Assembly (NCBI GenBank): GCA_015662905.1
Contig: DQTE01000088.1
Location: forward strand, 1-38,700
Reading direction: 5' to 3'
DNA length: 38,700 nt
Source: Crocinitomix sp.
Lineage (GTDB): Bacteria > Bacteroidota > Bacteroidia > Flavobacteriales_D > Crocinitomicaceae
Below, piece after piece: positions 2,061-15,905 of this stretch. The position numbers and the translations under genes were made by a program. The notes under the pieces are model-generated. The model saw nothing but the letters and a program-made list of their open reading frames with translations, did no database searches and was not told the origin of the DNA. Each line of letters opens with the position of its first letter. Position 1 is the first letter of the stretch.

Positions 2061-2744
2061 TTAAACAATTATTTCTCCATTTTCATTAGTGGTAAGTGCT
2101 TCACTCATAAAGTTAAAAAATGGTCGCATTGCTTTAAAAGTATTGTCAATCATTAAAGCAAAATCTTTACTCAAGACTTCTTCATCTGTAAAAGGTTTTA
2201 CGAGTAAAAATTGTTTATATCTTAATAAATCTATATACTTATGATTTTTATCAAAACCTTTGGGTGCTGTTTTTAGTTTTTTTCCTTTTAGTTCTCCAAA
2301 ATTTGTTTTAAATTCTTTTGAGTTGATAATTTGTAATAATTCATCACCAAATTCAAGAATATTTGTTCTAATTTTTTTTAAATCTTTTGAATTAGGGTTC
2401 CAAAAACCTCCACCAACAAAAGAAAGTTTAGGCTCAATATGAAAGTAATACCCACCTCTTAAAAGTTTTGTAGCTCTTTTATAGTATCCTCCCCAATGTA
2501 TTTTATATGGCGTTTTATCTTTAGAAAATCTAACATCTCTATATATTCTATAAACTGATTTTTTACCAGATACAGTTTCAATATTATCGTGTTGGTTAAG
2601 GCGTTTTAAAACGTCATCTGCAAAATGTATGATATCATTTCTATTTTGTTCATACAAATGTTTGTTTGCTGAAAACCAGTCTCGGTTATTGTTTTTTTTT
2701 AAATCTTTTAAAAAAATTAGATTTTGTTTATTGAGGGTGCTCAT
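2061..2744 (-). CDS. DUF2461 (TIGR02453-like) family protein
   Basis: FLKDLKKNNNRDWFSANKHLYEQ... and YRIYRDVRFSKDKTPYKIHWGGYYKR are typical of DUF2461. Confidence 0.85.
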   Translation of the reverse strand: MSTLNKQNLIFLKDLKKNNNRDWFSANKHLYEQNRNDIIHFADDVLKRLNQHDNIETVSGKKSVYRIYRDVRFSKDKTPYKIHWGGYYKRATKLLRGGYYFHIEPKLSFVGGGFWNPNSKDLKKIRTNILEFGDELLQIINSKEFKTNFGELKGKKLKTAPKGFDKNHKYIDLLRYKQFLLVKPFTDEEVLSKDFALMIDNTFKAMRPFFNFMSEALTTNENGEIIV

Positions 2745-3837
2745 CTTTTAATATTATTGTTCTAAACCCTTTAGATTGGTATGTTTCAATTCTCCCTTTA
2801 GTATTATAAAAAATTAAATAGACTTCAATATCATCTATTTTTTTTGATTTGATAAACTTTACAGTTTTTTCTACTCCCATAACCATGAAAGCTGTTGCGA
2901 GTCCGTCTGCTAAGGCACAATTATTGGCAACTACCGTTGCGCTTAATAATGAATGTTTAACTGGATAACCTATTTTTGGATTTAACGTATGTGAATATTT
3001 GATGCCATCTTTTTCATAGAATTTACGGTAAGAACCTGATGTAGCAACAGCTTTGTTGTTCAAAGAGATGATTTCTTGTATTTCTCTTGTTTGTGCATTT
3101 GATTTTTCAATAGGTTTATCAATTCCTATTCGCCAATAATGTCCTTCTGAATTTTTACCTTTAACTCTAATTTCTCCACCAATTTCTACGAAATAATTTT
3201 TTGCATTTCTTTTGTCTAACTCTTCACAAATCACATCTACAGACAAGCCCTGAGCTATGGCGTTAAAATCTAATTTTGCTTGAGGTGTGTTTTTTATAAT
3301 AAAAGAATTTTCAAGGGTGGAATCAGGTTGATAAGGTTTAAACGTAAAATGGTGGCCGTCATTGAACCCTATTAATTTTAACAAAGAATCAACTGTTGAG
3401 GAATCAGGAACATTTTGAATATCTTCCATAAACCCCCAACCTTTTACTAACGGATATACAGTTGGGTCAAAAGCGCCATTGGTTAGTTCATAAATGTATT
3501 GCGATTGTTTAAGACATCTGTTAAAAAAGTTAAGTGAGTCTCTATAGGTAAATGTACCTGCGGGTGCATTGTTTAGTTGGCTCAAAATAGATTGAGGAAT
3601 ATATGAACTCAAAGCCAGGTCAAACTGGTGAAGTAATTGGTCTATTTCATCATGGGTAATTTTAATGTTGTCATTAACAATAATGGAATAGGTTGTACCT
3701 TGTGTGTTTCCGTATAATTGTAGGGGATTTATAGAAGTTTCTTGTGTTTTAATTTGTTCTGTTTGCTTATTTTGATTAGAAGAATTGCAAGCAATCATAA
3801 AAATTATTGTAAGGACTAACCAAATATTTTTTTTCAT
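2728..3837 (-). CDS. apbE: FAD:protein FMN transferase (ApbE family), probable lipoprotein
   Basis: Lipobox-like MIACNSS; GTTYSI, LDFNAIAQGLSVD, VEIGGEIRVKGKN, KAVATSGSYRKFYE, YSHTLNPKIGYPV are ApbE motifs. Confidence 0.9.
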   Translation of the reverse strand: MKKNIWLVLTIIFMIACNSSNQNKQTEQIKTQETSINPLQLYGNTQGTTYSIIVNDNIKITHDEIDQLLHQFDLALSSYIPQSILSQLNNAPAGTFTYRDSLNFFNRCLKQSQYIYELTNGAFDPTVYPLVKGWGFMEDIQNVPDSSTVDSLLKLIGFNDGHHFTFKPYQPDSTLENSFIIKNTPQAKLDFNAIAQGLSVDVICEELDKRNAKNYFVEIGGEIRVKGKNSEGHYWRIGIDKPIEKSNAQTREIQEIISLNNKAVATSGSYRKFYEKDGIKYSHTLNPKIGYPVKHSLLSATVVANNCALADGLATAFMVMGVEKTVKFIKSKKIDDIEVYLIFYNTKGRIETYQSKGFRTIILKDEHPQ

Positions 3838-3892: not shown

Positions 3893-6800
3893 TTAATTGC
3901 GGACTAAATCAGCATTTTCGGTTTCTTGATTCCATTGAGCTTCCGTTATGGGTTCTCCATCTTTTGTATATGTTGTTGCGTATCTTGTTTTTGTTTTTTC
4001 ATACACAAATCCTTGTCCTTGTATTACAACGATTCGTCTAACGGTAAATGATTGTAACAGTCCTCTACTGTCTTTATCTTGGTATATTTCTTCAGTTACA
4101 CCTTCAGGGTATTTTTTACCAATTTCATTTTTAACATAAACCTTCTCTTTTGGCGTATCAACTTCTTCTTTCATGTGGGTTAAGTAGTTTTCTGTTGCAT
4201 TAACTTTTTCTTGATTTTTTTCTGTTTCAATAGTTTGTTTATCTTTTAAATTTTGTGCAGTTTCATTTACTTTATCTTGATTTTTAACCGTAGATTCATT
4301 TCCTTTTCTATGTTCATCAGCATTTTTATCTTTCATATTTTCCACGTATTCTTTTGTAGAATAAGAATCGTCTTGATTTACACTGTTTAAATCAGATTGT
4401 GTGGTATGTATTTCATCTTGTATTTTTACCACTTCTTCTTCATACCCTTGTCTCTCCTGCTCTTTTTGGGAAAATATTTCTGATTGTTCTTCAATATTAC
4501 TATCAACATGATCTTTGGTCGTATTGGTTGAAGCATCTTGTTCTATCACATAGTTTTCTTGAGTTCTACTTATTTCTTCTTCAATTTGTACTTTTTTAAC
4601 CTCCATTTTTTGGCGTGGCACATCATTAGCCATATTATTTATGACAATTTCATCTTGAATATGGTCTGTGTATGTTTTAGTGTCATAATTGATGTCAAGT
4701 TGTTTATTTTGCATTTCAGTAGAATAAGCGGTGTTGGTTTCTTCAATTTCAATGACTTTATCTTCCATTGATTGTCTATCTAAATCTGCACCTACCATAT
4801 AGTTACGTTGCCCATCTTTCATCACAACAATTTCTGCTTGAGTTTGGTAATTATAATCTTCTTGTTGCCATGCATTTTTAGTGTTTTCATTAAGATTAAG
4901 GATTTTCATATCTATCACATAAACCTCCATATTTTTTCTATCTACATCCATGTTTGGATCGGCTGTTACGTGTTTTTCTTTTTCATTTTCAACATAATTT
5001 TTGGTACTATACACTTGACTGTATTGGGCATTAGAATTTTGCTGATTTTCGGTATTTACCTCTGTTTGAATACTTACTACCTCTGCCTCATATTCTTGCC
5101 GTTCTACTTCTGCGTTGTATTCAACTTCAGATATTTCATCTGTTAGGCTTGTAATAACATCTTTTTGTCTAAATATTACATGCTCATTATAAATTGCTTC
5201 CTCCCTTTGTGTTCCCACATATTCCTCTGTCATGGTAATTACAGCTTTTTCGGATTTTTCACGTCCAATTTCACCTTCGTAAGCTTGTTCTCTTACATCA
5301 ACTTCCATTTGGTCAGTTGTTTCTTTTGCCAAAACAGTGGCATTTTCTTCTTTTTCTGCCCAGTCATGTTTAAAATTCATTACCTCATCTTTGTGTTCTA
5401 CTACTGCATTAGACGAATTATACTCTCTTTGATCTTGGTCATCCATTAGCATTTTTTCCATATCTTGTTCTGACAATCCAACCACTTTTTCGCCTAGGTT
5501 TCTCATCTCTGTTTTTTTAGCTTTAGGGGGATGTAGAATAGCATTAATTTTTGTTATTTGAGCATTTGGGTAAGAATTATCCCAAGTAGGCTGAAATCTT
5601 ATAGCACGTTCATATAATTCTTTTGATTTTTTATAATTAGCTTTGGAAAAGTACTCATCAGCCTTTATTATCATTTTATTATATTGTTCTTTATTAAACC
5701 CACCTAGTTTTGAATCAATTTTTGCAATTTGGTCTTTAGGGTATGCGTCATTTTTGACTTCATAAGCTTTTTGATATATAGGTCTTGCCTCTTTCCATTT
5801 TTGAGTTTCAAATAAGTTATCAGCTTTTTGTATCAGTGTTTGATATTCTTGCTCTAACTTTTGGTCTTTTAAAATCTGTTTAATCTCATCTATTCTTCTA
5901 GGTGGAATTGGATCACTACTATTCATTCCTTTTGCCCTTTCGAATAAACTCAAAGCTTTTTCATAATTTCCTTTGTCAAAATATTCTTGTGCTTTATCAA
6001 TAAGTTTTTGATAAGCGGTATTAATTTCATTACTCGATTCACTTTTCATCTTACTCTCACACAATACTATTCTATCTCTCGGGTGTTGTTCTGACGGAAA
6101 GTATCCTAACGCATCTTCATATTTAGCTTTTGCATCACTCCATTTTTTATTATCAAATAAGGCATCTGCTTCTGCTACTAATTGTTCATATTTTTGTCTT
6201 TTCTCTGCCTTTTGTTTCTCATCAGCCAAAGCTGAATTAATTTCATCAATTTTTTTTATTACGTATTTATCTGTTGGTTTGATGTTTTGTGCTTGTAAGT
6301 ATTTTTCTAAGGCTTGTTTATATGAATTAGCGTAAAATAAATTATCAGCCGATTTAACCAAATCTTTGTAGGCTTGTTCTTTCTTACTCTCCTCATCAAC
6401 TTTTTGATTTTCATTATTTTTAATCTCTTGAATTTCTTTTAACTTGTCTTTTGGATATTGTTCATTTTCTTTTACTGATAAAGCTTTGTTATAGTATTGT
6501 ATGGCTTGGTCATAGGCTTTATTTGTAAAATAGCCATCAGCTTTATCTGTATAGGTTTTATATTCTTCATCTTTTTCTATAGCTTTTAACTCTGCAATTT
6601 TTTGCTGTGCTTTTTTTATTTGTTCATCAGGATAGGTTTTAGAATCATCAATTGATTTAGCTTGATTATAGTATTCAATGGCTTGCAACCAATCTTCACT
6701 GTTAAATTTAGCATCTGCCAACTGTATTTTGGCTTTATAGTTTTCTTCTTTAGATTTTTTTGAATTGATTTCGTCAATTTTTGTTTGTATTTCACCAATT

Positions 6801-9649
6801 TTTTGTTTGATATTTGCCGTTTGTTTTTTGTTGTAGGCTGCTTTATAAGTTTCTAACGCATTTTGCCAATCTTCATTATTTTCATACGCTTTGGCTTTTG
6901 ATATAAGCTCATTATATTCTTTTTCTAACGCTTCTTGCTTTTCAATGTCAGCTATTTTTTTTTGGATATCAATTATTCTCTCTTCAGCGTGTTGAGACGG
7001 CATAATTGATTTGGCGACTTTATACTTTTCTAACGCTTTTTGATATTTATTATCACTATATAATTGGTCTGCTTCTTTAATGGCCGCATCAAATTTTGCT
7101 TTTTGTTCTGCTTGTGATTGACTTTTAGCTATAAGTGCATCAATATCTTTTATTTTTTGTTCTAAAACAGCATCTCCATTTTTTAAGTCAATGGCTTTTT
7201 GGTAATTTATTTTAGCGGTTTGATAGTCTTTTGTATCAAAGGCTGCATTACCTTTCTTAATGTACTCTTCAATTTGTTTTTTGAGTTCTGCAGCTTCTTG
7301 TTCTGCTTTAATCAGAGCATTAACTTCTTCAATTTTAGCTTTTGCTTCCGCATCATCTTCTTTTAAAGACAAGGCTTCATTATAAGCTGAAAGTGCAGAC
7401 ATATAATTTTTATTTGCCTGAAGTTCCTTACCTTCTTTCATTTTTGCTTGATAATCCTTTTCTCTTTGTTCGGCTGATTTTAAATTGGCTAAAATTGTAT
7501 TGATTTCGTTTATTTTGGTTTGAGGTTCTTGTTTGTTGGGATACACACCTAACGCTAAATTATAAGCTTCAATAGCTTCTTGATACTTTTTATTTTGGTA
7601 ATAATTGTCAGCTTTTTGCATAGCCGCTTTATATTCGGCATCTTTTTTCGCTTGCGCCTCTCTTTGGGTGAGAAGATTGTTTATTTCTGATATTTTGTCT
7701 TTTGGTTTATTTTCTGATGGAAATAATATTGATGCTTGAATATATTTAGCTTTAGCTTCTTCAAGCTTGTCGGCTGCAAATAAATTATCTGCTTGCGATA
7801 TCAGGTCATCATACTCTTTTTGTTTAGCCTTTTCAGCCTCTTCTTTAGCTTTTTGTTCAGCTATTTTTGAATTAATGTCTGCTATTCTTTGAGTTGGATG
7901 ACTTTCGCCTGATTTTAATTTTAGGGCTTCATTATATTTTTCAATAGCAGTTTGCCAATTCTCGTTATCGTAGGCTTTATCTGCTGCATCAATGGCTGAT
8001 TGATATTTAGTTTCCAATTCTTTTGCCTTGTTTTCGGCTTCTATTTTTTCTTGTTTTAACCTCTCAGCTTCTGCTTTTTTCTTTTCTACCTCAGCATCAG
8101 CTTTAATATCTAATGCTTTGTTATATTTTATAATAGCATCATCATACAATTTTGCTTGCAAAGCTGTATTACCTTCTTGTACTAAGGTGTTAAATTCTTC
8201 TTCTTTAGCAGCTTGATCTTTTAAAATTTGATTAATTTGCTTAATCTTTGTTTTTGGTTCCTCTGCAGTGGTTTTCATTTCTGCGGCGGTAGTATATAAA
8301 GCGAGTGCTTTATTGTAATCTTTAGCGTCAAAAGCCGTTTTGGCTTCAGTCATTTTTGCTTGATACTCTTCTTCTTTTCTTTTGGCTTCTTCTTCTTTTG
8401 CTTTTTGCTCGGCTAATTTTTGTTCTATTTTATTTAATTGGGCTTTTAGGTGATTATCTTCTGGAAAATATGATTTAGCTTCAAGGTATTTTTCTTTGGC
8501 TTTATTGTACTCTTTGTTATTAAACAGATTATCGGCAGATTCTATTAGGGCATCAAATTTCGCTTTATTTTCTTGTGCTTCTTTTTCGGCTTTTGCTTTT
8601 TCTTCTTTAGCTTTTTTGGCATTATCAAGTTTTGTTTTAACTGTAGCATCATCAAATAAGCCAAGGGCTTCAGTGTATTTAGAAATGGCATCATCAAAAT
8701 TTTGGTTAGACACCGCTTTGTCACCATCAGTTACTAATTGATTAAATTTATCTTGTTCCGCTTTTTGATCTGCTAATATTTTTTGAATTTTGGCTATTTG
8801 ATCTTTTGGTTCTTGTTCCTTGTTTGTTCCCTTAACTATTGTAATTGCTTGGTTGTACAAATCAAGGGCTTTTTGGTAATCTTTGGCATCAAAAGCTGAT
8901 TTGGCTTCAGTCATTTTTGCTTGATACTCTTTTTCTTTTTCAGCTTGAGCCGCCAATTTGTCTAATTCCTTTTGTGCTGCATCTCTTTTAGCTTTAACAT
9001 TAGCATCATCTTTTAGACCTAGTGCCAAATTGTATTGTTCTACCGCAGTTTTATAATTCTTTTTTGAAACGGCGTTATCGCCTGCTTTTACATAAGCGTT
9101 AAAATCTGCTTCTGTTTTGGCTCGTTCTTCCTCTTGTTTTGCTAATTCTTCTTTTTTCTCTTCAATTTGTTTTTTGAGCTCCTCAATCTTTTTCAGCATT
9201 TGCTTTGTGTACGATACATCATATTCAAATTGATAACCATCAGGTGTAAATTGAAAAGCTATCATTGGTGTAGTTTCTAAAAAAGAGAAATCTACACCTT
9301 CTACAGATTCAAAAAGGCTAACTTCCATTGTTTGTCCTGTTACATATTCCAAATCTTCAGGGGTATCATATCTAGCATCAACCTCAGCCATTTTGGTTAC
9401 ATAGCCTTGCTTTTTAAATTTGATTTGATAAACGTGACCTACGGGCACTTCTACATCATTAACCTTTCCTTTTGAATTGGTTGTAGAAGTTTGTATTTTT
9501 TTACCATCTTGATATATTTCAATGGTAACACCTGGTAAACTTTTACGTGTAGCTTCATCTTTAGCTTTTACGTAAAACACCACTACAGGGTCTTGAGCAT
9601 GCAAGTTTCCCGCAATTAAAAGTAATATGATAAATAATAATTTTTTCAT
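3893..9649 (-). CDS. 1918-aa secreted repeat protein: signal peptide, Ig/carboxypeptidase-regulatory-like N-terminus, about 20 TPR-like/coiled-coil repeats, 54-aa repeat array, short C-terminal domain
   Basis: Uninterrupted ORF; Sec-type signal MKKLLFIILLLIAGNLHAQ; repeat structure read directly from the translation (see repeat features). Confidence 0.9.
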   Translation of the reverse strand: MKKLLFIILLLIAGNLHAQDPVVVFYVKAKDEATRKSLPGVTIEIYQDGKKIQTSTTNSKGKVNDVEVPVGHVYQIKFKKQGYVTKMAEVDARYDTPEDLEYVTGQTMEVSLFESVEGVDFSFLETTPMIAFQFTPDGYQFEYDVSYTKQMLKKIEELKKQIEEKKEELAKQEEERAKTEADFNAYVKAGDNAVSKKNYKTAVEQYNLALGLKDDANVKAKRDAAQKELDKLAAQAEKEKEYQAKMTEAKSAFDAKDYQKALDLYNQAITIVKGTNKEQEPKDQIAKIQKILADQKAEQDKFNQLVTDGDKAVSNQNFDDAISKYTEALGLFDDATVKTKLDNAKKAKEEKAKAEKEAQENKAKFDALIESADNLFNNKEYNKAKEKYLEAKSYFPEDNHLKAQLNKIEQKLAEQKAKEEEAKRKEEEYQAKMTEAKTAFDAKDYNKALALYTTAAEMKTTAEEPKTKIKQINQILKDQAAKEEEFNTLVQEGNTALQAKLYDDAIIKYNKALDIKADAEVEKKKAEAERLKQEKIEAENKAKELETKYQSAIDAADKAYDNENWQTAIEKYNEALKLKSGESHPTQRIADINSKIAEQKAKEEAEKAKQKEYDDLISQADNLFAADKLEEAKAKYIQASILFPSENKPKDKISEINNLLTQREAQAKKDAEYKAAMQKADNYYQNKKYQEAIEAYNLALGVYPNKQEPQTKINEINTILANLKSAEQREKDYQAKMKEGKELQANKNYMSALSAYNEALSLKEDDAEAKAKIEEVNALIKAEQEAAELKKQIEEYIKKGNAAFDTKDYQTAKINYQKAIDLKNGDAVLEQKIKDIDALIAKSQSQAEQKAKFDAAIKEADQLYSDNKYQKALEKYKVAKSIMPSQHAEERIIDIQKKIADIEKQEALEKEYNELISKAKAYENNEDWQNALETYKAAYNKKQTANIKQKIGEIQTKIDEINSKKSKEENYKAKIQLADAKFNSEDWLQAIEYYNQAKSIDDSKTYPDEQIKKAQQKIAELKAIEKDEEYKTYTDKADGYFTNKAYDQAIQYYNKALSVKENEQYPKDKLKEIQEIKNNENQKVDEESKKEQAYKDLVKSADNLFYANSYKQALEKYLQAQNIKPTDKYVIKKIDEINSALADEKQKAEKRQKYEQLVAEADALFDNKKWSDAKAKYEDALGYFPSEQHPRDRIVLCESKMKSESSNEINTAYQKLIDKAQEYFDKGNYEKALSLFERAKGMNSSDPIPPRRIDEIKQILKDQKLEQEYQTLIQKADNLFETQKWKEARPIYQKAYEVKNDAYPKDQIAKIDSKLGGFNKEQYNKMIIKADEYFSKANYKKSKELYERAIRFQPTWDNSYPNAQITKINAILHPPKAKKTEMRNLGEKVVGLSEQDMEKMLMDDQDQREYNSSNAVVEHKDEVMNFKHDWAEKEENATVLAKETTDQMEVDVREQAYEGEIGREKSEKAVITMTEEYVGTQREEAIYNEHVIFRQKDVITSLTDEISEVEYNAEVERQEYEAEVVSIQTEVNTENQQNSNAQYSQVYSTKNYVENEKEKHVTADPNMDVDRKNMEVYVIDMKILNLNENTKNAWQQEDYNYQTQAEIVVMKDGQRNYMVGADLDRQSMEDKVIEIEETNTAYSTEMQNKQLDINYDTKTYTDHIQDEIVINNMANDVPRQKMEVKKVQIEEEISRTQENYVIEQDASTNTTKDHVDSNIEEQSEIFSQKEQERQGYEEEVVKIQDEIHTTQSDLNSVNQDDSYSTKEYVENMKDKNADEHRKGNESTVKNQDKVNETAQNLKDKQTIETEKNQEKVNATENYLTHMKEEVDTPKEKVYVKNEIGKKYPEGVTEEIYQDKDSRGLLQSFTVRRIVVIQGQGFVYEKTKTRYATTYTKDGEPITEAQWNQETENADLVRN
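4292..5263 (-). repeat. Six tandem 54-aa (162-bp) repeats in the C-terminal third of the 1918-aa protein
   Basis: Units start at aa 1463, 1517, 1571, 1625, 1679 and 1733 with REKSEKAVITM, RQEYEAEVVSI, RKNMEVYVIDM, RQSMEDKVIEI, RQKMEVKKVQI, RQGYEEEVVKI. Each is exactly 54 residues. A second motif recurs at unit position 31: FRQKDVI, YSTKNYV, YQTQAEI, YDTKTYT, NTTKDHV, YSTKEYV. Confidence 0.85.
5520..9103 (-). repeat. About 20 tandem TPR-like repeats (about 55-65 aa each) in the 1918-aa protein
   Basis: Repeated motif [YF]xxxxxxAdxxfxxxxYxxAixxYxxAlxxk...pxxkixxIxxxl, from FNAYVKAGDNAVSKKNYKTAVEQYNLAL to YNKMIIKADEYFSKANYKKSKELYERAI. Confidence 0.88.
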
Positions 9650-10277: not shown

Positions 10278-13001
10278 TTATTTCTTTTTAGCAAATTCTC
10301 CTTTGCTTTTTCTTATTTTTACCGATACTACTTTATATTCTGGACAATAAGCTTCTGTACAGTGTTCATCAGATGTTATATTATTTACCATAATTTCAGG
10401 AAAATGAAAGGTTGTACTTAATATCCCTGGGTTTACTCCTTCGGTAATAAAAGCCTTTATGTCAACTTTTCCTCTTGGTGATTCCAAGCAAACCATATCT
10501 CCATTTTTAATATGTTTTTCTGTTGCATCTTTAGGATTAATCCATAATACGTCTTCAGTATGTATCTCAACATTACCTGTTCTACGCGTCATTGCGCCAC
10601 AGTTGTAGTGTTCTAAATCTCTATTTGTGGTTAATATATATGGATAGTCCTTTCCATTTTTAAGTATTTCTCTACTTTCAGCAAATTCATTATACTTAAA
10701 CAGACCTTTTCCTCTTTTAAATGTTTCTGTGTGTAGAATTTTTGTGTCAACGCCTTGAGGTGTTACTGGCCATTGCTTTCCTGTTACACCTAATTCTTCC
10801 CATTTAACTCCAGCAAAGAAAGGCACAATTTTAGATATTTCTTCAAGTAATGTTTTTGCATTATAATCCGGTTGATTATACCCCATTTTATTCATAATGT
10901 CAACTATAATCTGCCCATCAACCTTAGCATTTCCAATTGGTTCCACTACCTCTCTAACAGCTTGAATTCGTCTTTCACCATTGGTAAAAGTACCTGATTT
11001 TTCTAAGAAAGATGCTCCTGGTAAAATGACATCAGCATACTTGGCTGTTTCTGTCATAAATAATTCTTGAACAATAACCAAATCAATCTTTTCTAGTGCT
11101 TTTATAACTTTTTGTGTATTTGGGTCAGTTTGAACGACATCCTCTCCTATTATCCATATAGCTTTCAATTTGCCTTCTAATCCTGCTTCGAACATTTCTG
11201 GAATTTTATACCCAATATGTTTAGGAACAGTAACACCATAAAATTCATTGTATTTTTTATTGGCTTCATCATTTGTAACGTCTAAATAGCCCGCTCCTTG
11301 GTGAGGTTGCACACCCATGTCGGCAGAACCCTGTACATTATTTTGTCCTCTTAACGGATTTACCCCAACTCCTTTTCTCCCTATATTTCCTGTTAATAGT
11401 GCTAAATCTGCAATTTGCATTACTGTAAACGTTCCTTGATACTGTTCAGTTACTCCTAAACCATGGAAGCTCATTGCATTGGGTGCAGTTGCGTAGGCTA
11501 TTGCCGCTTCTTTTACAAGATTTTTATCAACTCCCGATACTTCTTCTAACTTATCAATATCGATATTTAGTATTTGATTTTTGAAATCTTCAAAACCTTC
11601 GGTTCTATTGTTTATAAAAGATTGGTCAACTAACCCTTCCTTTATAATGTAATACATCATCATATTAAGCACAGCTACATTTGTTCCTGGTCTTAAAGCC
11701 AAATGGTAAGTAGCGTATTTTGCAATTTCAGTTTTTCTGGGGTCAATAACAATGGTTACATTGTCAGATTTCATGGCAAATTGCTTAATTTTAGCACCAG
11801 TTACTGGGTGTCCTGCTGTTGGATTTGCACCAATAACCATGATACAATTAGTATGGTTAATGTCTTCCACTGAATTTGTAGCTGCTCCAGTTCCAAAAGT
11901 ACGCTGCATGCCTAAGGCTGTAGGTGAATGACAAACCCTTGCGCAGCCATCAATATTGTTTGTTTGTATAACTGCTCTAAAGAATTTCTGCATTAAATAG
12001 TTTTCCTCATTTGTACATCTTGAACTTGAAATTCCTGCTATAGAATCGGGGCCAAATTCTTTTTTGAATGATTGTAGTTTTGAAGTGATAAAATTGTAAG
12101 CTTCATCCCAACTCACTTCAACAAACACACCATTCTTTTTAATTAATGGTTGTTTTAATCTGTCCTCATGGTTATAGAACTTGAATGCATATCTACCTTT
12201 TAAACAAGTGTGTCCTTGGTTAACCTCAGCATCAACAGGTGCTGTAATAGCTTTTATTTCGCCATTTTTGGTGGATACTTCTAGGTTGCATCCTACCCCA
12301 CAGTATGTACAAATGGTTCTTGTTTTATGGTCAAAATTAGTAGATTTTGATTCGAAAACATCACTTATGGCAGATGTTGGACATGCTTGTGCACAAGCGC
12401 CACAACTGACACAATCAGATTCAAAAAAGGATTGTTCTGTTCCTTTAACAATGTGTGCGTCAAAACCTCTACCAGCCATACTCAACACAAACTGCCCTTG
12501 AACTTCATCACAAGCCCGTACACAACGATAGCAATTTATACATTTAGAAAAATCAGAAGTCATATAAGGATGACTTAAATCTTTTTGATAGTGCAAATGA
12601 TTTTCTAGGTCTGTAGGATAACGCACTTCACGGAGTCCTACTTCTCCTACAACATCCTGTAGTTGGCAATTTCCGTTTACTTCACAAGTTAAACATTCTA
12701 AAGGATGGTCTGAAATTACCAATTCAATAATGTTTTTTCTTAATTCTTGAATTGAATCACTACTTGGATAAATATACATTCCATCAGACACTGGTGTATG
12801 ACAGGATGCCATTACTTTTGTTGGTCCATCTTTTTGAAGAGCCACATCTACACTACAAATTCTACAAGAACCAAACGCCTCAAGATTAGGTGCATCACAT
12901 AAGGTCGGGATTATTTTTTCTCCCTCAATACGTTTAACAAAGTTTAAAATGGTTTCTCCTTGTTTAAAATTATATGTTTTGTTGTTAATATATGCCTTCA
13001 T
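10278..13001 (-). CDS. NAD-type formate dehydrogenase alpha subunit (NuoG-like Fe-S N-terminus plus molybdopterin FdhF domain)
   Basis: N-terminal 2Fe-2S/4Fe-4S Cys clusters (CRICSVDV, HPLECLTCEVNGNCQLQ, CINCYRC, CVSCGACAQACP), CTYCGVGC, and active-site-like DGCARVCHSPTALGMQRTFGTGAATNS with Cys rather than Sec. Confidence 0.9.
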   Translation of the reverse strand: MKAYINNKTYNFKQGETILNFVKRIEGEKIIPTLCDAPNLEAFGSCRICSVDVALQKDGPTKVMASCHTPVSDGMYIYPSSDSIQELRKNIIELVISDHPLECLTCEVNGNCQLQDVVGEVGLREVRYPTDLENHLHYQKDLSHPYMTSDFSKCINCYRCVRACDEVQGQFVLSMAGRGFDAHIVKGTEQSFFESDCVSCGACAQACPTSAISDVFESKSTNFDHKTRTICTYCGVGCNLEVSTKNGEIKAITAPVDAEVNQGHTCLKGRYAFKFYNHEDRLKQPLIKKNGVFVEVSWDEAYNFITSKLQSFKKEFGPDSIAGISSSRCTNEENYLMQKFFRAVIQTNNIDGCARVCHSPTALGMQRTFGTGAATNSVEDINHTNCIMVIGANPTAGHPVTGAKIKQFAMKSDNVTIVIDPRKTEIAKYATYHLALRPGTNVAVLNMMMYYIIKEGLVDQSFINNRTEGFEDFKNQILNIDIDKLEEVSGVDKNLVKEAAIAYATAPNAMSFHGLGVTEQYQGTFTVMQIADLALLTGNIGRKGVGVNPLRGQNNVQGSADMGVQPHQGAGYLDVTNDEANKKYNEFYGVTVPKHIGYKIPEMFEAGLEGKLKAIWIIGEDVVQTDPNTQKVIKALEKIDLVIVQELFMTETAKYADVILPGASFLEKSGTFTNGERRIQAVREVVEPIGNAKVDGQIIVDIMNKMGYNQPDYNAKTLLEEISKIVPFFAGVKWEELGVTGKQWPVTPQGVDTKILHTETFKRGKGLFKYNEFAESREILKNGKDYPYILTTNRDLEHYNCGAMTRRTGNVEIHTEDVLWINPKDATEKHIKNGDMVCLESPRGKVDIKAFITEGVNPGILSTTFHFPEIMVNNITSDEHCTEAYCPEYKVVSVKIRKSKGEFAKKK

Positions 13002-13032
13002 AATCTTTTAATTTTTCTTATTCTTTTATGGC

Positions 13033-14259
13033 TCATTTGTCTTGTTCCTCAATATCTTTTAAATAGAACATAAAAGTTGTACTATTGTGTGTCAATTCTT
13101 TTTCATAATAACCTTCAAGTTGTTGTGTCATTATTTCAATCAATTCAATTCCAAAACTGTTTTGAGATTCACTAGGCTGTTTCCAAGTACCATTATCAGA
13201 ATAGAATATTTCAAAATCGTTACCCTTTTTTTGTTTTATCTTGATGGTAATCTCTCCTTCTTGTTCATCATCAAAAGCATGTTTAAAAGTATTAGTAACT
13301 AACTCATTAAACAACAAGCCTAATGGGACAATTGTTTTTAATCCTGCATTATAGTCTGAAGTTATATATACTTTAACATTTTTTGTACCGTAAATTTGCT
13401 TTAAATCTTCAATCAATTCAACTAAGTACTCTTTTAAATTAATTTTAGACAACGATTTATTGCCATATAATTTTTGATGGATAAGAGCCATTACCATTAT
13501 TCTGTTTATGGCTTCATTTAAGTTTTTTTTTGCTTCATCTGATTTTAGGTCGTTAGACTGCAATCTTAGCAAACTAATTATAATCTGTAAATTATTTTTA
13601 ACCCTGTGATGTACTTCTTTTACCAAAGCAACATTCTCTTTATTTTGTGCAGATATATATTCATTCTTTTCTTTAAGTTCATTGTATGTTTTTTTTATTT
13701 CTTGTTCAGAAAACGATTGAAACTCAATAAATTTGTATAATAAATAACCAAAAATAGACAGCGCTACTAAGGTTTCTATTATTTCAGTAGCGATATCTAT
13801 TGAACCTCTTAATTTAATGTTTTTATAATGGTTATTCATTGAGAAAATAATAAATAAAAGCAAATTTATGCTATTAATCATTAAAAATAAAAAGCCTATT
13901 CTTAGGCTGATTCCTACAAAAGCTGTTAAGACAACAACCAGAACCCATATATAATCAACAAAGTGTGTGATGTGAGAAAGAAAAGCCAATGAACCTCCTA
14001 TAATTAATGTACCTGACACACTAAACACCCAGAAAATTGCTTTATATTTTTTTGTCTTAACAATAAAAAAAAGGCAAAAAACACCTATAAAAAAGGTGAT
14101 TAACTGTGGATAAAAAATATCTTTAAAGTACCAAAAGGTTGTAAGGCTTAATACACCAAAGATGAACGAAAACAATAGGCTTATTCTATATACCAACAAA
14201 TACTTTTCTTTATCAAAATAAGAAGTATAAAAATCAGTATTTGGTGTAAAAAAACTCAT
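13033..14259 (-). CDS. Membrane-bound histidine kinase (HisKA_2/LytS-like)
   Basis: Several N-terminal TM helices; H-box VKEVHHRVKNNLQIIISLLRLQS; C-terminal ATPase-like LGLLFNELVTNTFKHAF...DNGTW...FGIELIEIM. Confidence 0.9.
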   Translation of the reverse strand: MSFFTPNTDFYTSYFDKEKYLLVYRISLLFSFIFGVLSLTTFWYFKDIFYPQLITFFIGVFCLFFIVKTKKYKAIFWVFSVSGTLIIGGSLAFLSHITHFVDYIWVLVVVLTAFVGISLRIGFLFLMINSINLLLFIIFSMNNHYKNIKLRGSIDIATEIIETLVALSIFGYLLYKFIEFQSFSEQEIKKTYNELKEKNEYISAQNKENVALVKEVHHRVKNNLQIIISLLRLQSNDLKSDEAKKNLNEAINRIMVMALIHQKLYGNKSLSKINLKEYLVELIEDLKQIYGTKNVKVYITSDYNAGLKTIVPLGLLFNELVTNTFKHAFDDEQEGEITIKIKQKKGNDFEIFYSDNGTWKQPSESQNSFGIELIEIMTQQLEGYYEKELTHNSTTFMFYLKDIEEQDK

Positions 14260-14264
14260 TATAA

Positions 14265-15905
14265 TTATTTTATAAAATATTGTTTTAATTCGCTTTCAAA
14301 ATAAGTTAACGCATTTTTAACAGGTAATGGTATTCCTCCGCCGTGAGCACATAAACTACCTTGTTGTAATGTATTCATTAAATCCATAAACAAATTCATA
14401 TCAATTTTAAATTCAGATGTATTGGCTTTTTGCAATAATTCATGAGCTCGTTTTGTACCCAACCTACAAGGGAAGCATTTCCCACAACTCTCGTACTGAG
14501 CGAAATCCATTAAATGTTCTAAAAAACTCATCATTGAAAAAGATTTAGGAATACATACAATGGACGCATGTCCTAATAAGAACCCCTCTTTAGAAAATGA
14601 TTCAAAATCAATAGTTAAGTTTTCAATTTTTTCAATTGGAACTATTCCTCCGAGAGGCCCTCCAATTTGCATAGCTTTAACCTCTTCTTTAAAACCTCCT
14701 CCAAATTCATAAATAACAGTTGAGAGAGGTGTTCCCATTTCAACCTCATAAATGCCTGGATTTTTGAAAAAAGAATCTAAACATACTAATTTAGTACCTT
14801 TAGATTTTTGAGTTCCAAGTTGAGCATAGGCTTTTCCTCCATTTTTAATAATATGATATACAGCCGCTAAAGTCTCAACATTATTAACAATAGTTGGTTT
14901 ATTGAATAAGCCCTGTTGGGTTGGATAGGGAGGTCTAGTTCTTACTTCTGGTCTTTGTCCTTCTATTGAATTAATTAAAGCCGTTTCTTCTCCGCATATA
15001 TAAGCCCCTTGCGCTTTAATTATTTTAAAATCAAAATTAAAATTAGAGTTTAGGATATTTTTTCCTAACAGATTATTTTCTTTTAATTCATCAATGGCTT
15101 TTTGAACAATTTGTACTGCCTCTGGATATTCTGCTCTAATGTACAATATGCCCCATTCGGCACCTGTTGTATAACCAGCCATTAACATTCCAAACAATAC
15201 TGAATGAGGTCTTTGTTCTAGCAAGTATCTATCAGAATATGCACCTGGGTCTCCTTCATCAGCATTACAAATAATAAATTTTGTATCTCCATCTGTATTT
15301 CGGCAAGATTCTAACTTAAATCCCATGGGAAAACCAGCGCCTCCACGCCCTCTAACGTTTGATATTTTTATTTCATCTAAAATTTCAGAACTATCTTTTT
15401 TTAAAGCATCTTTTAAAATTTGATAATGTTTTTCAAAATTATCATAGGGTTCTGTCAACAACTCAACATTTCCGCCCACATTATAATCATCAGTGTTAGA
15501 GGCTTTATTATCAATTACCTCATCAATTTCTACATTTGAAAAGTTTTTACCTTGATAATGAAACGCACCATTTTCGTGACAACGTCCTAAACAAGTCATG
15601 TGACCAATTTCTGAATCGTCAAAATGCTGTTTTAAATCTTTAATAACCTTACTTTGTTTACCAGAACAAACACAAGCTGTACCATTGCACACGTAAACTT
15701 TTTTACCTTTATTTTCGGGTTTCATAAAGTCATAAAAACTAACCGTTCCGTAAGTAGTTGCCGTTCCTATAAGAAAGTCATCAGCTAATTGTTCTAATTC
15801 TTTTTTGGTTGGTGTTCCATTTTTAGTTGAAGCATCACCTAATGCTTCAAAAAGATTATTTTTAATTCCTTTTCTAAAAGATAACTCACTTAGGTTTTTT
15901 GACAT
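14265..15905 (-). CDS. NuoE-NuoF-like fusion: NADH/FMN-binding beta subunit of the NAD-dependent formate dehydrogenase
   Basis: NuoE-type CNGTAC/CLGRC cysteines; NuoF motifs RGRGGAGFPMGFK, CNADEGDPGAYSDR, GAYICGEETALINSIEG, C-terminal CGKCFPCRLGTKR. Confidence 0.9.
   Translation of the reverse strand: MSKNLSELSFRKGIKNNLFEALGDASTKNGTPTKKELEQLADDFLIGTATTYGTVSFYDFMKPENKGKKVYVCNGTACVCSGKQSKVIKDLKQHFDDSEIGHMTCLGRCHENGAFHYQGKNFSNVEIDEVIDNKASNTDDYNVGGNVELLTEPYDNFEKHYQILKDALKKDSSEILDEIKISNVRGRGGAGFPMGFKLESCRNTDGDTKFIICNADEGDPGAYSDRYLLEQRPHSVLFGMLMAGYTTGAEWGILYIRAEYPEAVQIVQKAIDELKENNLLGKNILNSNFNFDFKIIKAQGAYICGEETALINSIEGQRPEVRTRPPYPTQQGLFNKPTIVNNVETLAAVYHIIKNGGKAYAQLGTQKSKGTKLVCLDSFFKNPGIYEVEMGTPLSTVIYEFGGGFKEEVKAMQIGGPLGGIVPIEKIENLTIDFESFSKEGFLLGHASIVCIPKSFSMMSFLEHLMDFAQYESCGKCFPCRLGTKRAHELLQKANTSEFKIDMNLFMDLMNTLQQGSLCAHGGGIPLPVKNALTYFESELKQYFIK

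Follow-up and report, generated by a model that had tools for sequence, protein, structure and literature searches.

The window analysed here, a 38,700-nucleotide stretch of a Crocinitomicaceae genome, contains an open reading frame (3893-9649, minus strand) that encodes a protein of 1918 aa. From N- to C-terminus, this protein consists of a signal peptide, a beta-type domain, a TPR array, a rod of 54-aa repeats and a C-terminal domain of ~80 aa, hereafter the tail domain (Table 1). Signal peptides are also present in those relatives whose N-termini are intact, and complete genes of the family encode proteins ranging from 681 aa to >2200 aa. The N-terminal beta-type domain is without a Pfam match. 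Within the TPR array of the window protein, motifs are spaced by 59-64 aa rather than 34 aa, suggesting an extra helical stretch per motif.

Table 1. Layout of the rod protein and its downstream neighbour (positions refer to the window; (-), minus strand)
Feature	Residues (aa)	Position (strand)	Basis or remark
Signal peptide	1-19 (MKKLLFIILLLIAGNLHAQ)	9593..9649 (-)	Sequence; no lipobox Cys
N-terminal beta-type domain, carboxypeptidase-regulatory-like in look	~20-112	9314..9592 (-)	Sequence pattern, by eye
TPR array	~177-1375	5525..9121 (-)	Pfam TPR_2, E = 1.8e-36; motif spacing
Conserved linker, upstream anchor	LGE-type motif at 1384-1389	5426..5524 (-)	Anchor HMM
Repeat unit 0, degenerate, in register	1409-1462	5264..5425 (-)	Leave-one-out profile, 11.8 bits
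Repeat unit 1	1463-1516	5102..5263 (-)	Autocorrelation and leave-one-out profile
Repeat unit 2	1517-1570	4940..5101 (-)	Autocorrelation and leave-one-out profile
Repeat unit 3	1571-1624	4778..4939 (-)	Autocorrelation and leave-one-out profile
Repeat unit 4	1625-1678	4616..4777 (-)	Autocorrelation and leave-one-out profile
Repeat unit 5	1679-1732	4454..4615 (-)	Autocorrelation and leave-one-out profile
Repeat unit 6	1733-1786	4292..4453 (-)	Autocorrelation and leave-one-out profile
Last unit, marginal; helical run-out into tail domain	1787-1834	4148..4291 (-)	4.0 vs 3.3 bits
C-terminal (tail) domain	1838-1918 (YPEGVTEE...RRIVV...W..ET)	3896..4138 (-)	Alignments, AF2, occurrence in the order
ApbE-family gene		2728..3837 (-)	55 bp downstream of the rod gene

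The initial annotation had described six units with an exact 54-residue period, beginning at aa 1463, 1517, 1571, 1625, 1679 and 1733. Comparison of aa 1381-1840 with itself (mean BLOSUM62 score) gave peaks at lags of 54 (0.485), 108 (0.31) and 162 (0.26), and the maximum among 500 shuffled controls, taken over all lags from 20 to 199, was 0.094; the period is thus confirmed, far above the shuffles. We then scored the units with a profile of 82 other rods from which the window protein was left out. The six units score 7.6-33.4 bits in the phase described and lower in all other phases. The further degenerate unit that had been suspected upstream is also present: the scored part of this unit (aa 1416-1462) reaches 11.8 bits, compared with -5.6 bits for the next phase. 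By the same profile, seven units (aa 1409-1786) share one register, and an eighth is marginal, with 4.0 bits against 3.3 for the best other phase. Hence, the repeat is real, and wider than first noted. A second motif reported at unit position ~31 is recognisable by eye in five of the six units, and not in the sixth.

Searches of Pfam with aa 1444-1918 returned no family, and we found no relative of the 54-aa repeat in Pfam, NCBIfam or the PDB, in line with the earlier impression that it does not belong to a named family. The same protein carries a TPR array (Pfam TPR_1/TPR_2/TPR_8) before the rod, but the 54-aa unit itself cannot be assigned to the TPRs, since the 34-aa TPR signature is not seen in it and no TPR model matches aa 1444-1918. 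A profile search of the PDB with the rod retrieved mainly TPRs, together with a handful of chance matches and, at E = 0.012, a myosin coiled-coil chimera. Foldseek comparison of the whole model with the PDB gave nothing at E <= 0.001, and our literature search found no paper on this protein.

The tail domain, which forms the fixed downstream end of the rod, is predicted to fold as alpha-beta4-alpha (helix, four strands, helix); the mean pLDDT of the AF2 model is 87, rising to 92-98 in the core. No significant match to the tail model was detected in the PDB by Foldseek (nothing at E <= 0.001). The second C-terminal domain of extracellular MapZ (PF18708) bears a very weak likeness to the tail domain, matching 4 of 72 tails with a best E value of 0.003. 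Because the score of the window tail, 13.6 bits, is below the curated cut-off of 27.6, and the PDB holds no significant fold match, we treated this likeness as chance.

The protein is near-universal and single-copy in the order. When the window protein alone was used to query genome contigs we obtained no match, but a query built from the tail alignment found 150 relatives, of which 80 were kept, including proteins from Crocinitomix algicola, C. catalasitica, Taishania, Brumimicrobium, Lishizhenia and Fluviicola, which places the window in Crocinitomicaceae or near relatives of that family. Among 39 related genomes, 25 (the window's own counted) contain a relative. Of 299 genomes of the order, 225 carry the tail domain (178 of the 204 good ones), and it occurs in 60 of 66 genera, nearly always as one copy per genome. 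Across the phylum, an earlier and smaller tail profile matched 4 of 395 genomes drawn, the window's own among the four. The initial annotation had proposed a search of UniProt/Bacteroidota proteomes with an HMM of the six units. A two-unit repeat profile matched 18 of 100 genomes drawn from the order and, among 296 drawn from the phylum, the window's own genome only (0 of 295 others), although, being far less sensitive than the tail profile, this profile says little about diverged rods where it finds no match. The repeat-profile matches listed within the order lie in long frames of the tail-carrying kind, as judged by comparing coordinates where a frame was also listed for the tail.

As a measure of rod length we took, in ~100 ORFs, the number of residues separating the LGE-type motif from the tail's EGV motif, located with two HMMs (the anchor HMM matched 102 ORFs and the tail HMM 106). 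Most rods fall at 459-463 aa, with others at 351, 379-380, 405-409, 433, 454-457, 482, 513-514, 564-570 and 619 aa; among non-redundant rods, 47 of 74 measure 457-463 aa. Array length varies across species in half-units of ~27 aa: a Rayleigh test peaks at a period of 26.5-27 (R = 0.89, p ~ 3e-4, ten length classes), with the caveat that this period, being half the repeat, was not picked blind and that the length classes were grouped by hand. MAFFT opened gaps in an alignment of 53 diverse rods; hence, AF2 was run with nine close rods, and the others were handled with a phase-tracking profile. The nine close rods align over 435 columns without a gap at ~31% identity, with invariant arginines at residues 204, 258, 312, 366 and 420 of the first row. 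In most relatives the strongest or leading lag is 54 or 108, and the same holds for many members of the other families sampled from the order, two of which carry near-identical, freshly homogenised 54-aa tandem units (L155, lag-54 score 3.62; L151, 1.03). The fixed unit length and diverged sequence remarked on in the window protein thus extend across species. Taken together, the 54-aa period in several families, the ~27-aa length steps and the ungapped alignment support the proposal, as judged from sequence, that selection acts on the structural register of the rod.

Some relatives depart from this pattern. Three proteins from one family of the order (L157, L158 and L159) have lags such as 66 and 126 before the tail, not 54, which may point to another rod unit of 63 residues on average. 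Members of one genus-level group (L144-L148 and L163) are short versions of ~845-925 aa that have the tail domain and no clear 54-aa period. A second family member in genome G001 (L047:8028-11654) keeps the C-terminal domain with a different rod, made of many copies of a highly charged 31-aa unit (KKLEEERQAALKQAQEAEARKKAEADSIAAA), suggesting that the rod type has been exchanged.

The conservation of length also bears on whether the region has a structure at all. An unstructured low-complexity linker, with repeats left over from a recent tandem duplication, would suit the acidic, Asn/Gln-rich composition of the rod and its low AF2 confidence. Such a linker would not be expected to align gaplessly over 435 columns at ~31% identity or to change length in ~27-aa steps in dozens of species, and the units of the window protein have diverged strongly from one another, indicating that the array is old. 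We consider this explanation very improbable.

The rod is alpha-helical. Hydrophobicity in 63 pooled rods from outside the Crocinitomix group peaks at periods of 3.17, 3.6, 2.25 and 4.15 residues (shuffle level, 1.5), corresponding to 54/17, 54/15, 54/24 and 54/13. A 3.6-residue stripe modulated every 27 residues yields exactly the harmonics 13, 15 and 17. Residue charges are negatively correlated at lags 3 and 4 (-0.09 and -0.07), with correlations near zero at lags 2, 5 and 6. This i,i+3/i+4 charge contrast excludes zero wherever along the unit it was taken: in all four segments, with polar stretches and unit junction covered. Structure prediction, suggested in the initial annotation, modelled the region as long helices, albeit with low confidence (AF2 pLDDT 37-75), and gave no strand. 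In 83 rods, the core stripe runs through unit positions 1-4-8-11-15-22-26-33-37-40-44-51, a regular spacing along the rod of 3.6 per turn rather than heptads. Most residues of the stripe are hydrophobic, and Arg1, Gln26 and Thr/Asn33 within it are conserved; at position 4, most species have Asn and the Crocinitomix group has Tyr.

In the Crocinitomix group, hydrophobicity peaks most strongly at a period of 2.25, which, with alternating motifs such as YEVDVEDI, could be read as the strands of a beta-structured stalk like the fibres of phages or adenovirus. We rejected this reading of the peak, because 2.25 equals 54/24 and is an alias of twice 15/54, that is, of the second harmonic of the 3.6 period. 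The charge correlations, strong at lags 3 and 4 and near zero at lag 2, and the lack of any AF2 strand in the rod also speak against it; neither strand periodicity nor lag-2 coupling, which would mark a beta-fibre stalk, was found. Thus, where the initial annotation had left the choice between a fibre and a coiled rod, the coiled rod is the better fit, and a beta fibre is a long shot.

A closer competitor is an alpha-hairpin solenoid, in which each ~27-residue half-unit is a helix plus a polar loop and two half-units make a hairpin, so that the rod would be a compact stack continuing the TPR solenoid that precedes it. The length step is indeed one half-unit, and the AF2 helices are interrupted at about unit positions 24-36 and 44-50, close to the half-unit ends where proline and glycine cluster. 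Hydrophobic residues are few (VILMFYW ~24-27% of the rod), and the stretches 17-29 and 45-52 are poor in them. Proline makes up 0.3% of the rod and gathers at positions 44-2, around the unit junction, such that the helix may break once per unit. Yet prolines are nearly absent from positions 17-30, charge compensation at i,i+3/i+4 is equally strong in the supposed loops, and the half-units lie in one common 3.6 phase, as indicated by the odd harmonics 13, 15 and 17. Analysis of pair couplings revealed no antiparallel pattern, with low power to tell a continuous helix from hairpins. We therefore favour one long helix in an oligomer over stacked hairpins, which we regard as doubtful.

We propose that copies of the repeat build up an alpha-helical spacer rod, linking the TPR scaffold to the C-terminal domain of an exported, most likely periplasmic structural protein, a reading to which we assign a probability of roughly 0.55. 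At 3.6 residues per turn, the 54 residues of a unit would make 15 helical turns; the stripe would therefore run straight down the rod, where it probably packs against neighbouring helices of an oligomeric coiled coil or bundle. Drift in sequence would be tolerated, as would length changes of about 27 or 54 residues, but single-residue insertions or deletions would be rejected because the stripe would turn. By analogy with coiled-coil spacers, the rod of about 435 residues would thereby hold the TPR scaffold and the alpha/beta tail domain apart at a set distance.

The initial annotation had called the protein secreted. Export by the signal peptide stands; secretion beyond that does not, as the protein appears to lack the C-terminal sorting domain of a type IX secretion substrate, with no Pfam match to Por_Secre_tail in the window protein or in 72 tails, and no NCBIfam match to a gliding-type C-terminal domain in the window protein. 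This makes the periplasm a more likely location than the surface. A cell-surface fibre or adhesin stalk would accord with a large, repetitive, exported protein from a group that uses the type IX system (the window encodes an endonuclease with a Por_Secre_tail), but the lack of any sorting-domain match, the tail being a separate conserved domain, and a near-universal single copy, unusual among adhesins, lead us to think it unlikely. As one continuous helix, the rod would be ~65 nm long (435 x 0.15 nm). A typical periplasm measures ~25-35 nm; hence, the rod may double back on itself, run alongside the wall or lie outside.

Length-conserved helical spacers are already known as a kind. A length conserved despite sequence divergence characterises coiled-coil molecular spacers, as has been stressed for Giantin and Ndc80 (PMC5082667). 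The rod described here shares several features of that class, being alpha-helical, conserved in length with divergent sequence, and regular in its core positions. Giantin, Ndc80 and Spc110 are eukaryotic coiled-coil spacer rods (PMC5082667), as proposed here, whereas the present protein comes from bacteria, is exported and has a unit fixed at 54 aa, a 3.6 period in place of plain heptads, and length steps of ~27 aa. Closer in setting is Omp-alpha of Thermotoga, a periplasmic rod of ~50 nm (PMC5082667). Both would be exported helical rods in the cell envelope, read as spacers across the periplasm; they differ in that we identified no membrane anchor in the window protein, and we claim no relation by sequence. 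To our knowledge, Omp-alpha has neither a 54-aa repeat nor a TPR array. In the libraries searched we found neither the 54-aa repeat nor the ~27-aa length quantum nor the tail domain. The analysis defines an undescribed repeat and C-terminal domain in a protein that nearly all members of one bacterial order carry as a single copy.

More tentatively, the protein could be an order-specific molecular ruler, present once per species in almost all, whose helical rod, built in 27-residue steps, sets a distance in the envelope by its length; we hold this with more doubt than conviction. If it were so, natural length variants (13 to 23 half-units) would correspond to different envelope spacings; because rods already occur naturally in a series of lengths ~27 aa apart, the ruler hypothesis can be tested directly.

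The gene neighbourhood is partly conserved and gives no pointer to function. In 21 of 72 loci the next gene downstream, on the same strand, belongs to the ApbE family, and a divergent gene for what we take to be an FAD oxidoreductase lies upstream in 45 of 72 (loci L054-L133). In these loci, ApbE or a gene for a presumed Mpl ligase is found within three genes downstream. Elsewhere in the window, at 10278-15905, a HisKA_2 histidine kinase gene is flanked by a gene for a NuoF-like protein extended by a thioredoxin-like domain and by a molybdopterin/NuoG-like gene, all on one strand.
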